A model generated the notes under the pieces. The model searched no databases, had not been told where the DNA came from, and saw nothing but the letters and a program-made list of their open reading frames with translations. 64,000 nucleotides of DNA, from positions 1,245,639-1,309,638 of the forward strand of contig CP125320.1 in NCBI GenBank assembly GCA_030142985.1, read 5' to 3'. This document shows, piece by piece, positions 43,260 to 59,467 of the stretch; positions within the stretch are counted from its first letter, which is position 1, and each line of letters begins with the position of its first letter. The position numbers and the translations under genes were made by a program. Source of the stretch: Candidatus Ruthturnera sp. Tsphm01. Lineage in GTDB: Bacteria > Pseudomonadota > Gammaproteobacteria > PS1 > Pseudothioglobaceae.

Positions 43260-44200
43260 TTTAGTCCCATACAATAATGTGATGAAATACAACAATTTAA
43301 CAAAAGCAAAACTATGGGACAAATACTTCACAGGCGTGCTACTACAACACAAGAAATCAGGAACAAAATTAAACAAGAGAAAGGAGCTATTAGTTCCATT
43401 GCCAAAAAATATAACATTGCCTGGAGTGCCGCAAAGAAATGGCAAAGTCGTGATACCCTTGAAGATAAACCAATGGGAAATGGTAGAGCAAACTCAAATT
43501 TAACGCTTGATGAAGATTGGCTAATATGCGAAGTTCGCAAGCTCACCTGGCTACCACTTGATGATCTTTGGTTATTGCTACAATCTATGTTTCCAAAACT
43601 CTCTAGTAGTGCACTACATAGAGTGTTGCAATATTATGGCATTAGTAAAAAACCAAAAGAATTACAACAAAAACCACAACGCTCAAAGTTTAAATCTTAT
43701 GAAATTGTCTACCTGCATATTGATATTACTGATTTTTGGCTTGAGAAAAAGAAATGGTCTTTGTTTGTAGCGATTGATAGGGAAACTAAATTTACCTATT
43801 GTGAAATATTTTCCAAAAAGACCATGCAAAACGCAATTACTTTTTTTTTGAAAAACACTTATAAGTTTTTCCCTTATAAAATCCATACTATATTGACAGA
43901 CAATGGGTTACAGTTTAGTTATAAAGCATTAGCAAAAGACTTAAAAACAAACAAAATTCATCCCTTTGATAAGCTTTGTGAAATGCAGGGTACTGAGCAT
44001 AGATTAACCAAATTTGCTCATCCTTGGACTAATGGACAAGTAGAAAAAATGAATCATATCATCAAGTCTGCAACACTAAAGCTGTTTCATTATGAAGGCA
44101 TTGATGAATATTCAAAGCATTTGGCAAAGTTTTTGAATTATTATAACTTTGAGATGAAATTAAAAAGCCTAGGGTTTAAATCTCCTTATGGTATGATTAT
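43260..44200 (+). mobile_element. IS481-type element, right end missing
   Basis: The left end TTTAGTCCCATACAATAATG (43260-43279) recurs at 55769-55788 next to another integrase fragment, identifying it as the element terminus. The body holds one transposase gene. On the right, the element stops inside the transposase C-terminus where an attC-like site begins, so the right end is lost. The exact right boundary is approximate. Confidence 0.7.
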
Positions 44201-44216
44201 TCCAGCCGACCGCTAA
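43314..44216 (+). CDS. IS481-family transposase, C-terminus altered at an attC junction
   Basis: The 300-residue protein has an N-terminal helix-turn-helix (SIAKKYNIAWSAAKKWQSR), then the DDE core: YLHIDITDFWLEKKKWSLFVA, ILTDNGLQFSYKA and HPWTNGQVEKMNHIIKSAT. The last residues PADR are encoded by an attC-like palindrome rather than by the IS. Usual family members have a few more C-terminal residues after PYG. It may be catalytically intact, but the element cannot move without its right end. Confidence 0.88.
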   Translation: MGQILHRRATTTQEIRNKIKQEKGAISSIAKKYNIAWSAAKKWQSRDTLEDKPMGNGRANSNLTLDEDWLICEVRKLTWLPLDDLWLLLQSMFPKLSSSALHRVLQYYGISKKPKELQQKPQRSKFKSYEIVYLHIDITDFWLEKKKWSLFVAIDRETKFTYCEIFSKKTMQNAITFFLKNTYKFFPYKIHTILTDNGLQFSYKALAKDLKTNKIHPFDKLCEMQGTEHRLTKFAHPWTNGQVEKMNHIIKSATLKLFHYEGIDEYSKHLAKFLNYYNFEMKLKSLGFKSPYGMIIPADR

Positions 44217-44243
44217 CGTGGCAGCTGAATTCAAACGTTAACA
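44199..44243 (+). other. attC-like integron recombination site, left part lost
   Basis: ATTCCAGCCGACCGC, a central TAACGTG, GCAGCTGAATTCAAACG and the terminal GTTAACA resemble the inner stem and right (R') side of integron attC sites. The left TAAC-type box is missing, replaced by the IS481 transposase end. The sequence closely parallels the complete site at 44895 (CCAGCTGAC...GTCAGCTGAATTCAA). A cassette gene begins 13 bp downstream. Confidence 0.65.
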
Positions 44244-44256
44244 TTAGGGATGTGGT

Positions 44257-44721
44257 ATGATAAAAAAAACGTTATTTTGTTGTATGGTGCTGTTCTACGG
44301 CTTGGTTTATGCTGCAGAGCCAGTTAACAAAAGTTTTTGGGATAATATTGCTATTGGCGGTTACGACGCTGTTGCCTACCATGAGCCTGATAACATAAAA
44401 CAACATAAAGCAATACAAGGTGATAGTTCATATCAATATAATTGGAAAAATGCAAAATGGTATTTTTCTAGTAAAAATAATCTTGACATGTTTATCAAAA
44501 ATCCAGATAAATACGCACCGATGTATAACGGATATTGTTCAAATGCACTTAGTTTAGGAGAGGGCTTAGTTAAAACTGATGGTACGCATTGGCAAATTTT
44601 TTCTGACAAACTACATCTTTTTTACTCAGCTCAAGGACGTAATCGTTGGGTTGAAGGTGATTATATGAAATATAAAAAAGTTGCAGATAAAGCATGGAAA
44701 GCAATCATTGAAGGGTATTAA
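44257..44721 (+). CDS. Secreted YHS-domain protein, likely integron cassette gene
   Basis: The 154-residue protein has a signal peptide (KKTLFCCMVLFYGLVYAAEP) and a YHS-type domain: GGYDAVAYHEPDNI, KWYFSSKNNLDMFIKNPDKY and YNGYCSNALSLG. YHS domains bind metal or occur in metal-handling and electron-transfer proteins; a specific role cannot be given. AGGGA lies just upstream of the ATG. It sits between two attC-like sites in the orientation expected of a gene cassette. Confidence 0.82.
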   Translation: MIKKTLFCCMVLFYGLVYAAEPVNKSFWDNIAIGGYDAVAYHEPDNIKQHKAIQGDSSYQYNWKNAKWYFSSKNNLDMFIKNPDKYAPMYNGYCSNALSLGEGLVKTDGTHWQIFSDKLHLFYSAQGRNRWVEGDYMKYKKVADKAWKAIIEGY

Positions 44722-44724
44722 AAA

Positions 44725-44871
44725 ATGAAAACAAAATATTTATTAATATTGCTTGTAATAATCGCATTAGTAATGATGCTATTTAGTATGTTAAATAATA
44801 TTATTCCTCCATTATTGACTGGCATTGGCTTCATCATTATTGCCATAATATTTTTTAATAAGAAATATTAA
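44725..44871 (+). CDS. Small two-segment membrane protein (48 aa)
   Basis: The frame starts 3 bp after the YHS stop and encodes MKTKYLLILLVIIALVMMLF, a short Asn/Pro turn, then a second hydrophobic stretch (TGIGFIIIAIIFFNKKY). Two membrane helices are likely. A possible RBS is AAGGG within the end of the YHS gene, about 8 bases before the ATG. It fits within the same cassette, before attC. No homologue is recognised; it could be a partner of the YHS protein. Confidence 0.55.
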   Translation: MKTKYLLILLVIIALVMMLFSMLNNIIPPLLTGIGFIIIAIIFFNKKY

Positions 44872-44894
44872 TTAGTATTTTTTTGCAGCAAAAA

Positions 44895-44951
44895 TACTAA
44901 CAAATCATTCCAGCTGACCGCTTACGCGTCAGCTGAATTCAAGCGTTATGT
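44895..44951 (+). other. attC-like integron recombination site (complete)
   Basis: The site starts at ACTAAC (44896-44901), runs through AAATCATTC, stem CAGCTGAC (44911-44918), loop CGCTTACGC, complementary GTCAGCTG (44928-44935), AATTCAAGC and ends in GTTATG (44945-44950). The 8-bp central stem is perfect and the outer boxes are spaced as in short attC sites of about 55-60 bp. It follows the YHS and small membrane protein genes in the correct orientation. Immediately after it a truncated transposase starts. Confidence 0.75.
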
Positions 44952-47101: not shown

Positions 47102-48427
47102 TTATTTGAAAATATTTGCTAGTTTTTCAGCGCCTTGTTGGGCAATAACTTTATCTTTAGCTTCAACCATTACCCTTATAAGCGGCTCTGTACCTGAAAC
47201 TCGGATTAATACTCGGCCTTCATCGCCAAGTGTTTGTTCAACTTCAAGTTGGACTTGTTGTAGTTGGGTGTGATTTTCAAGGTTAATGTTTGTTTGGGTT
47301 TTGATATTAATTAAAACTTGTGGATGTTTTTCCATTGCTTGCTTTAATTCAGCAAGACTGGATTGGCTTTTTGCGAGTACTTCCAACACTTGCAAGGCAG
47401 AAATAACACCATCACCAGAGGTGGTTTTATTCAAACATATAATATGCCCTGAACCCTCACCGCCTAGTATTGAGTCACTCTTTTGCATTTGCTCCATCAC
47501 AAAGCGATCACCCACATCAGCTTCGATAAATTTAATGTCTAACTCTCTTAGTGCATGGCGCATGCCTAAGTTACTCATTTTTGTGCCAACCACTGTATTA
47601 TTAACCAGTCTACCTTGAGATTGCCAAGCTTTGGCGATAATAAATACCAGTTCGTCTCCATCAACCAGCTCGCCATTTTCATCAACCATCATTAAGCGGT
47701 CGCCATCACCATCAAAGGCAATACCCAAATCTGCTTTTGACTCTAAGACAACTTGTTGCAGGTGTTTGGTGTCGGTTGCACCACAATGTTTGTTAATATT
47801 AAAGCCATCTGGTGTGTTATTAATGATATTAATGTTTGCGCCCAATTCTGAAAATAAGCTTTGGGCAATGTGATAAGTAGCCCCATTTGCGCAATCAATG
47901 ACGATATTAAGCCCTAAAAGATTTTGTGTTCGGTCAAAAGTTGATTTGCAAAATTCGATATAACGCCCAAGTGGTTGTTCGTGCCTATGGGCTTTGCCAA
48001 TCTTATCAGCGCCTACACTAACCATAGGCTCAGCTAATTTTTTCTCAATTTCGCTTTGGTCTTGGCTGCTTAATTTAAAACCTTTGGCAGAAAAAAACTT
48101 GACACCATTGTCTTGAAAATGATTATGTGAAGCGCTAATGACTGCGCCAACACTGGCATTATAAGTTTGCGTTAAGTAGGCAACTGCAGGTGTTGGCATC
48201 GGGCCTAGTAAACCAACATCAACACCAGCAGATAAAAAACCCGCCTCAAGTGCAGATTCAAATAAATAGCCAGATACGCGGGTGTCTTTACCAATAATAA
48301 CACTAGCTTTGCCTTGTTTAGCTAATACTGAGCCAACTGCCCAGCCTAATTTTAAGAAAAAATCAGCGGTAATAGGCTCAACACCTACCTTGCCACGTAT
48401 ACCATCAGTACCAAAATAATTACCCAA
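47102..48427 (-). CDS. glmM: Phosphoglucosamine mutase
   Basis: GlmM converts glucosamine 6-phosphate to glucosamine 1-phosphate for peptidoglycan and LPS precursors. The 441-residue protein has [11 protein letters not shown] at the start, the phosphoserine loop [18 protein letters not shown], the metal-binding AFDGDGDRL and the sugar-binding GGEGSGHII. It overlaps folP by eight bases, keeping the ftsH-folP-glmM order of E. coli. Confidence 0.97.
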
Positions 48428-57329: not shown

Positions 57330-58325
57330 GAGACCTTTGCGTAATTCATAATTTCTCACCCTAATTCCAATTTCTATATTTTTTCAAAAATATTTTCAAA
57401 ATTTGCTGTTTTTTTCCAACAAAACCTAAAAACATCTTGTTTTTCTAGTGCTTTCAAACTTGATTTTTCTATTTTTACTCTTTCTTTGCTCATTAGACAC
57501 AACAATCCTTCAAATCTTGCATTTGTTTAAAAATATTCATTCCAGTTTTAAGATTATGACTCATGGCAATGAGTTGTACTCTAGTCTTATTTCTCTCTAA
57601 TCCAAGATATCTTGCCTTGGCTAATCCGTGATGAAGCTTAAGTAGTCCAAAGGTGCGCTCAACAATATAACGAATGCTGGAGCGTTGTTTGTTTTCTTGT
57701 TTTTGTTGGTCTGTCAGTGGCGTGTTTCTGTAAGCCCTATGTAAAACCTTGTTGTTGTGCTTACCCAGTTTTTCATTATTGTTTGGCTTCTGTAACGGTG
57801 GCATCAATGATGTTGATTGAGCCTAATGAGACGATAATTGAATTTTGCTCTAAATGGTTGTTTATTTGCTTTAGTAGAGGTTCTAAGAGTTTTTCAGTAT
57901 TGAGCAGTTGTCTAAAACGCCAAATGCTGGAACGGTCTGGCACATTCTCAGATAGGGATAAATCAATAAAACGTCTGAACATCAAGTCTCTGGCAATTTG
58001 CTTTTCTAGCGCCTCATCATTTAGACCGTACCAAACTTGAAGGATTAGGATTTTAAACATCATCAGTGGCGGATAACTAGGTGCACCTAGTCTAGATGAA
58101 TACAAGTTCGAAAGTGTTTGCTCTATCTCAGACCAATTGATGATGTTGTGTACATCATCTAGCTCCGATAGAGATTTATGCTGAACAACAAGAGAATCTG
58201 CAAATGAGTTTTGTTCGGTGTTTTTCCAAGACATGCTTAATTTTTTAGAGTTGTTTTTAGATGGGTGTTATTTTATCATACGGGTGGTTTCTTTGATTTT
58301 TTTAGTTGATTTATGCAAAGGTCTC
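57330..58325 (-). mobile_element. IS5-type element with internal deletion (996 bp), AACGG target duplication
   Basis: The ends GAGACCTTTGCG (57330) and GCAAAGGTCTC (58325) match those of the complete copy, and AACGG flanks both sides (57325-57329 and 58326-58330). About 270-290 bp inside the transposase gene are missing compared with the 1266-bp copy. It inserted into the attC-like site that separates the DoxD-like and PLP genes. Confidence 0.9.
57493..58234 (-). pseudogene. IS5-family transposase with internal deletion and frameshift
   Basis: The N-terminal part (58234 to about 57776) reads as in the complete copy up to NIIDATVTEAKQ. The C-terminal part (to 57493) resumes at NNEKLGKHNNKVLHRAYRNT and ends DLKDCCV. 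The missing region holds the second catalytic Asp. In the complete gene the sequence AACAAT occurs at both break sites, so slippage between short direct repeats explains the deletion. Confidence 0.9.
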
Positions 58326-58378
58326 AACGGGTGAATTCAACTGCCGCGTTAACGGTCGGCTGGAATGAATTGTTAGGA
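58326..58378 (-). other. attC-like site after the DoxD-like gene, split by IS5
   Basis: On the minus strand the order is CCTAACAATTCATTCCAGCC, GACCG, a TTAACG turn, CGGCAGTTGAATTCACC and CGTT. Removing the IS5 element and one AACGG copy restores a terminal CCCGTTATAT. The sequence is close to the sites at 44199 and 44895 (CATTCCAGC..GACCG and GCAG.TGAATTCA). It begins 38 bp after the stop of the DoxD-like gene in matching orientation. Confidence 0.7.
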
Positions 58379-58415
58379 TTATTTTTAATAATTAAGCATT
58401 GTACTTCATTATCTT

Positions 58416-59297
58416 TTATTTTATTCTCTTGAATACTTTTGTGATTACTGAATTAATAGTATGCGAATGACCGCCTCCGAATATAAATAACACAACACCG
58501 CCTGCAATAAATGCAAATTCGCGTTTGAATCCATTTAGGTTGCCAATAAGAGATTTGTCTATATTCAGTTTATGAACCATATACCACAACATAATCAATA
58601 TTAGAATAATACTAATATAACGGAGACCAGCGCCTCCAACGATTAAAATAGCTGTTAATAATAAAATCCATGGTGTTGATGCAAATGTTTGAATATTGGG
58701 CATACTGAAAAATATTGCACCAATACCTAGAGGTATTGCCAATGAAAGTCTGAGTAAAAGACCTAGAATATCCCAGTTAATGTTTGTATTAATAGCAGGT
58801 AAGCGAAAGAGTTTTTCATCCAAACTATAAGCACCAGAACCTAAATTGTATAATACAAACATCATACCTGATAAAGCAATATCGCGAATTTGTACAAAAA
58901 TTGCAGGAGCAAGATAGGTTTTAACTGTAACTTCTATACCAGGCACCGTTACCGTTGGTAATGCTACAACAAATGTCCATAATAAGAAACCATATAATAA
59001 ACTTAAAGGACGCACGGCAAGACCAACAATTAAAGCAATACCACTAATAAACTCAAATGTAGATAATGAAGTTAAAAACCACCATGGCGAAAGTTGACCG
59101 GAGGCAAATAAAAAGTCAACAAAAAATTGATTAACATAACCGCTTGTTCCCCAGTAAGATGCTAATATTTTTTCTTGTAATGCTGGATTAAGTAATTGAC
59201 TTAATTTATTAATACCACCAATTACAAAAACTAATCCTAAACCAACTCGAAGTATTAACGGCGTCATTACCATTGCATTTTTATTTTCTATACTCAT
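58416..59297 (-). CDS. DoxD/DoxX-family membrane protein (cassette gene)
   Basis: The 293-residue protein has about seven hydrophobic segments and the family start TPLILRVGLGLVFVIGGINKL. DoxD is the small subunit of thiosulfate:quinone oxidoreductase, and DoxX-type proteins also occur in unrelated stress roles. In a sulfur oxidiser, a thiosulfate role is attractive but unproven, and no separate DoxA is seen nearby. A C-terminal GGGHSHTINS segment is unusual. It is followed by an attC-like site and so may be a cassette; the 250 bp upstream contain no gene. Confidence 0.75.
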   Translation of the reverse strand: MSIENKNAMVMTPLILRVGLGLVFVIGGINKLSQLLNPALQEKILASYWGTSGYVNQFFVDFLFASGQLSPWWFLTSLSTFEFISGIALIVGLAVRPLSLLYGFLLWTFVVALPTVTVPGIEVTVKTYLAPAIFVQIRDIALSGMMFVLYNLGSGAYSLDEKLFRLPAINTNINWDILGLLLRLSLAIPLGIGAIFFSMPNIQTFASTPWILLLTAILIVGGAGLRYISIILILIMLWYMVHKLNIDKSLIGNLNGFKREFAFIAGGVVLFIFGGGHSHTINSVITKVFKRIK

Positions 59298-59467
59298 AAA
59301 ATATATCCTATGTTGTACCTAACTATTAGTATAAGGACATATTCCTTTATACACTCTATTAAAAACAACACTATGTAAAAATGCTGTATTTTTGCCACTT
59401 TCTTAGTCTAAAATAAATTTTTACTTAAGGGCACCTCTAAAAACCTCATTATAACACCAAAAAATCT

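Follow-up and report, generated by a model that had tools for sequence, protein, structure and literature searches.

The window (the whole stretch of 64,000 nucleotides analysed here) carries on its plus strand a 708-bp unit (44238-44945) bounded by two G^TT crossover points, its boundaries being taken from attC alignment and a covariance model; judging from its sequence, it is near certain that this unit is an integron gene cassette. Two open reading frames lie within it, both in the orientation of the attC sites: the first (44257-44721, plus strand) encodes a 154-aa protein of the YHS (seleno)protein family (NF041384, 108.9 bits at a cut-off of 70) with an N-terminus that looks signal-peptide-like by eye, and the second (44725-44871, plus strand) encodes a 48-aa hydrophobic protein. 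Both genes and their matching orientation agree with the original prediction, which was made from the DNA letters alone.

Upstream lies a transposase ORF with an rve integrase core (43314-44216, plus strand; Pfam rve/rve_3), which is truncated at its 3' end and whose last codons extend into the first attC site. Homologous transposases in genome G007 run past the residues SPY as DKI...KYQ.. for about 20 further residues that are missing at 43314-44216, and the IS right end found at one of these homologs, TATTGTATGGGACTAAA, is missing in the window as well. On the other side of the cassette stands a glmM-like gene (47102-48427, minus strand; PGM_PMM domains), whose counterpart in the sister genome G011 forms the boundary of the integron array. 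Elsewhere in the genome, at 616307-617933 of the chromosome, a second copy of the YHS gene was observed that is identical over 393 bp, contains an IS3-family element and lacks its ends. No attC site was detected beside this copy (617 kb) by the covariance model at E values up to 1, suggesting that non-integron duplication occurs in this genome too.

A complete and a damaged attC site flank the cassette

Since an Rfam scan of 42-47.5 kb matched no family, a covariance model was built for the present analysis from ten plasmid-integron attC sites, with the lineage under study contributing none of them. A scan with a hand-written attC descriptor was dropped in favour of this model, as it returned many false matches in AT-rich DNA. 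The site downstream of the cassette (44895-44951, plus strand; crossover between 44945 and 44946) matched the plasmid-derived model with 60.5 bits (E 1.1e-11). Read directly, it shows a ctAAC left box, an 8-bp stem formed by CAGCTGAC and GTCAGCTG and the right end GCGTTATG, exactly as had been predicted for its boxes and stem. Its bottom strand adopts a fold with a single bulged base (z -3.3), which none of 200 shuffled sequences matched, and by blastn it shares 84.6% identity with the blaDIM-1 cassette attC from a class 1 integron.

The upstream site (44197-44243, plus strand; crossover between 44237 and 44238) is a remnant in which L''-loop-L'-R' is retained and R'' (the AAC box) is gone at the IS junction. 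Its core (44197-44236) scored 22.1 bits (E 0.011) over model positions 11-52 only, and 40 of 50 positions are identical to the attC consensus of the lineage; its folding was no better than that of shuffled sequences (z -0.3). The junction with the insertion sequence coincides with the lost left box, so that one deletion explains both the truncated element and the damaged site. Both sites share the predicted block CCAGC.GACCGC and a second block, the 13-mer CAGCTGAATTCAA; the leading G that had been assigned to the latter is present in the upstream site only. In the 1,523,273-bp genome this 13-mer occurs at these two places only, and the control gave 0 matches.

The original prediction had called these sites integron-type and had proposed a covariance search, which matched both and additionally revealed a third site that had been missed (58322-58378, minus strand; 42.2 bits, E 2e-7), with an IS end directly after its R' box. 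Together with the 60.5-bit match and the likeness to the blaDIM-1 attC, the presence of homologous sites beside integrases in sister genomes supports that assignment, and it is near certain, with regard to cassette status, that 44895-44951 and the damaged 44197-44243 represent genuine attC sites.

The search was extended to the whole genome (ten places at E values up to 5, the three window sites included), and the further cassettes and attC sites that had been anticipated elsewhere were found, as was the expected bottom-strand fold at 44895-44951. The matches lie at 480, 511, 661 (three in a row in one array), 1148, 1290 and 1304 kb, plus weak ones. The attC sites at 480084-480140 and 511525-511581 share the 30 bases that come next, TTAGAACGACTTAAAATTCTATTGTATTTA, as if the same next cassette had once followed both. 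Among relatives, G007 holds 18 attC sites, G014 ten and G031 six; at E 0.01, no attC was found in seven genomes of the same genus that have no intact intI (G001, G003-G006, G008 and G009).

An intact integron lies on the same chromosome

Integron integrases (IntI) recombine the folded bottom strand of attC with attI, by which circular cassettes are inserted or removed. The cassette had been reported without an integrase and classed as a CALIN. In the window there is indeed no integrase among the matches listed, and at 44.2-44.95 kb stand one complete and one damaged attC site; on the same chromosome, however, an integron with an intact intI is found 143 kb from the window cassette. This integrase gene (1,146,394-1,147,347) has no stops and matches TIGR02249 with 426 bits (cut-off 265); its product aligns over the full length with other IntI proteins, conserves the IntI-specific insert and the catalytic residues and is 47% identical to IntI1. 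The integron at 1,146-1,148 kb consists of intI, attI and one cassette that encodes a phospholipid-methyltransferase-like protein and is followed on its 3' side by an attC site (1147988-1148044; 51.4 bits with the covariance model). With an adjacent attI and at least one nearby attC, this is a complete chromosomal integron. The term CALIN would describe the spot in the window and is misleading for the genome, in which the array is most likely the detached end of a complete integron.

The attI next to intI is conserved in this genome, G011, G035 and four other public genomes (L052, L053, L056 and L057). The element ends in AATAGTTA, and beyond that point all sequences diverge; the homology between this genome (G000) and G011 likewise ends just past the G^TTA of attI, a break that fits what cassette turnover would predict for this position. 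A scan for a Pc promoter yielded a single consensus promoter-like match, fewer than in shuffled sequences and on the intI strand. In a tree based on a scan of public genomes, IntI falls into a well supported clade (100/98) with proteins from Ca. Ruthturnera, Ca. Thiodubiliella endoseptemdiera, the B. heckerae thiotrophic symbiont and two sponge-symbiont MAGs, and further with one Psychromonas and one Hydrogenovibrio MAG.

The window array and the integrase probably lie at the two halves of one locus

In G011 the order is contiguous: RsxA-like gene, TauE-like gene, intI, attI, array and glmM, with integrase, array and glmM within 4.6 kb (gene names at the locus are by inspection, except for glmM, which was assigned by its domains). 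Over the part of the G011 sequence that the comparison covered, G000 1140001-1147529 corresponds to G011 1253282-1260624 (left block) and G000 1292731-1301261 to G011 1264061-1272587 (right block), both in the same orientation. Between the blocks, G011 has 3.4 kb of array and G000 145 kb, and much of this 145-kb stretch matches G011 9.6-48.9 kb and 1352-1403 kb in inverted orientation. The window array is located at the right block, about 2 kb from glmM.

Eight outgroups (G012, G013, G015-G018, G020 and G022) have only 6-62 bp between the TauE-like gene and glmM, and this spacing is the empty site; in G031 the two genes are likewise adjacent. Within the genus, four genomes of 1.0-1.2 Mb (G001, G003, G004 and G009; loci L277, L282, L278 and L281) have intI fragments in the interval between glmM and the TauE-like gene or in its remnant. 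The fragment in G009 comprises the last 48 residues (83-89% identical), and G003 and G009 also retain fragments of a G011 cassette gene. Outside the genus, intI and the TauE-like gene are neighbours in a sponge-symbiont MAG and in isolate 455 of Ca. Thiodubiliella endoseptemdiera, whose intI contains stops; this argues that the locus is older than the genus. Cassette uptake had been thought unexpected in a sulfur-oxidising symbiont lineage. That expectation is not supported: integrases of a single clade neighbour the same gene in a sponge symbiont as well as in Ca. Ruthturnera and Ca. Thiodubiliella, and reduced genomes of the genus have decayed remnants at this locus.

Taken together, the window array most likely represents the distal end of the chromosomal integron of this genome, now detached from the rest. 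According to this model, the original array would have run from intI-attI, beside the TauE-like transporter gene, to glmM, and the YHS/48-aa unit (44238-44945) would have been one of the cassettes handled by IntI. Rearrangements including inversions would then have moved the intI end and the glmM end about 145 kb apart, at least two such events being needed given that the orientation of glmM was kept. The arrangement attC-YHS-attC would have been left beside glmM as an apparent CALIN, and a deletion adjacent to the insertion sequence would have removed the left box of the upstream attC. We consider this explanation as a whole, i.e. a cassette of the genome's own integron in an array detached by rearrangement, to be highly probable. 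IntI is presumed to be expressed and active and may still recognise the detached cassette in trans; descent of the window array from the intI array, as opposed to later insertion, is likely.

Other origins of the cassette

The cassette could instead have been inserted later at its present place, if IntI, encoded 143 kb away, had used a secondary (attG-like) site or an attC there. An intact integrase is at hand, and single sites with an attC occur dispersed at 480, 511 and 661 kb and, within the window, at 58 kb, but the second, damaged attC directly upstream means that at least two cassettes were once present here, and one secondary-site event would leave no attC on the left. As the place moreover abuts glmM, the boundary of the array in G011, we regard later insertion as unlikely.

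Alternatively, the YHS/48-aa pair could be a resident operon of the TauE-glmM interval that became a cassette by gaining an attC. In G014, a homolog of the YHS ORF (77% identical) and, adjoining it, a homolog of the 48-aa ORF (68% identical) lie between the TauE-like gene and glmM, the homology being limited to the coding part (44253-44872), and no attC was detectable at this pair with the covariance model. The pair is reversed relative to the window cassette, and its position and lack of a detectable attC raise the possibility of a resident operon that was captured later. Its opposite orientation between the two genes is also a point against this origin, as are the outgroups, which hold nothing between both genes and thus argue that the pair is not ancestral there; with ten attC sites elsewhere in G014, a decayed cassette is as likely an explanation. 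A resident operon is accordingly judged very improbable.

No better placed, and rated marginally lower still, is the idea that the flanking insertion sequences brought or moved the unit with the attC sites as passengers. IS remnants are found on both sides of the cassette, and the second YHS copy is broken by an IS3-family element; against this, no matching IS pair surrounds the cassette, the left element is truncated, no target-site duplications with identical IS ends were seen around 44238-44945, and both the attC type and the locus fit the integron of the lineage. Finally, the notion that the palindromes are simply terminators or ordinary repeats of intergenic DNA with no recombination role, to which related palindromes at several places in the genome might point, can practically be dismissed. 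They match the covariance model, which was built from unrelated plasmid sites, and the one extra C in their L'' arm stands where class 1 attC sites have it; they sit 3' of ORFs in attC orientation, form arrays after attI, and are absent from the seven genomes of the genus that have no intact intI.

attI copies without an integrase

The probably detached integron end is accompanied in the window by a copy of attI that has no intI beside it (59320-59428, minus strand; crossover between 59323 and 59322). This 109-bp run is identical to the attI beside intI (L010:2527-2635) and ends just past G^TTA. From it to the third attC site extends a second cassette of 995 bp (58328-59322, minus strand), which encodes a 293-aa DoxX-domain membrane protein (58416-59297, minus strand; Pfam DoxX, 40.1 bits). 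The region 58322-59428 (minus strand) adjoins secG/tpiA-like genes and a tRNA-like sequence.

Another attI copy (90% identity over 48 bp) is found at 662 kb beside an rnr-like gene. It heads an array with no integrase between the rnr-like gene and an ilvD-like gene (L142:4453-7476; 659.4-662.5 kb, minus strand), whose cargo comprises a GNAT protein, a 100-aa protein, an ABM-domain protein, a delta carbonic anhydrase and LysE fragments, with attC sites between most of them. The delta carbonic anhydrase (PF10563, 267 bits) looks secreted and could be an asset for a carbon-fixing symbiont. In G011, an attI copy with no integrase stands beside a metH-like gene and is followed by cassettes.

The rnr-attI arrangement recurs in G006 and G031 and thus in two genera, where it is followed by different genes. 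The G000 and G006 loci align up to the end of attI and then differ; in G006 the GTT of attI is mutated and an attC half-site was discerned by eye downstream. In G031 (L313:6551-10162), RecQ-like and DprA-like genes follow attI, with a weak attC score (16.7 bits), and possibly constitute a two-gene defence-like cassette. The occurrence of one platform with different genes in two genera suggests that the platform was kept while the cassettes changed. Upstream of the G031 attI, the first codons of an intI are apparently kept, as judged by eye, and the platforms may thus be former complete integrons. At another place in G031 (C1:434000-448000, L312), the first 50 residues of intI (80% identical) are followed by attI and a strong attC; on these sequence features the locus is a decayed integron, the only full intI of G031 being of another type (48%). 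A distributed integron, in which one intI would serve several attI platforms in trans, is conceivable from this layout and is put forward tentatively, with more doubt than confidence. If it is true that the extra platforms are used in trans, this would represent a new integron layout.

Comparison with known integrons

IntegronFinder defines a CALIN by two or more attC sites in the absence of an integrase, and the upstream attC described here is damaged beyond what a strict count of two sites would allow. Among mussel symbionts, a published table gives CALINs for that of B. thermophilus and both CALINs and In0 for that of B. septemdierum, with no locus or history (PMC10295459). The window array resembles these in being an attC cluster with no neighbouring intI and differs from them in that its probable parent integron could be traced within the genome itself. 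It shares the attC architecture and the extra-base position with class 1 integron cassettes (blaDIM-1, aadA7), but is chromosomal and has metabolic or unknown cargo. Literature searches on integrons together with vesicomyids and on extra attI sites returned nothing relevant. CALINs in mussel symbionts and this kind of cassette are thus already known; what appears to be new is the ancestral locus at a fixed place, together with its decay and the additional attI platforms.

The data point to a working-looking cassette-capture system that was inherited at a fixed site by relatives of bivalve-associated sulfur-oxidisers and whose decay has left just fragments in those genomes of the genus that are smallest. 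They offer a route for gene exchange in symbionts that can be tested, and a case in which a CALIN would have originated by rearrangement from a known parent integron on the same chromosome.

The integron at ilvD in Xanthomonas is a sedentary chromosomal integron with a fixed ancestral locus (PMC12444791). Common to both systems are one conserved place for intI, homogeneous attC sites, progressive loss of intI and CALINs at other conserved places; the host family differs, as does the locus, which here is the interval between the TauE-like gene and glmM. Several of the integrase-less arrays in the present lineage begin with a recognisable attI copy. The ancestral integron of Xanthomonas is the closest biological parallel to the system described here.
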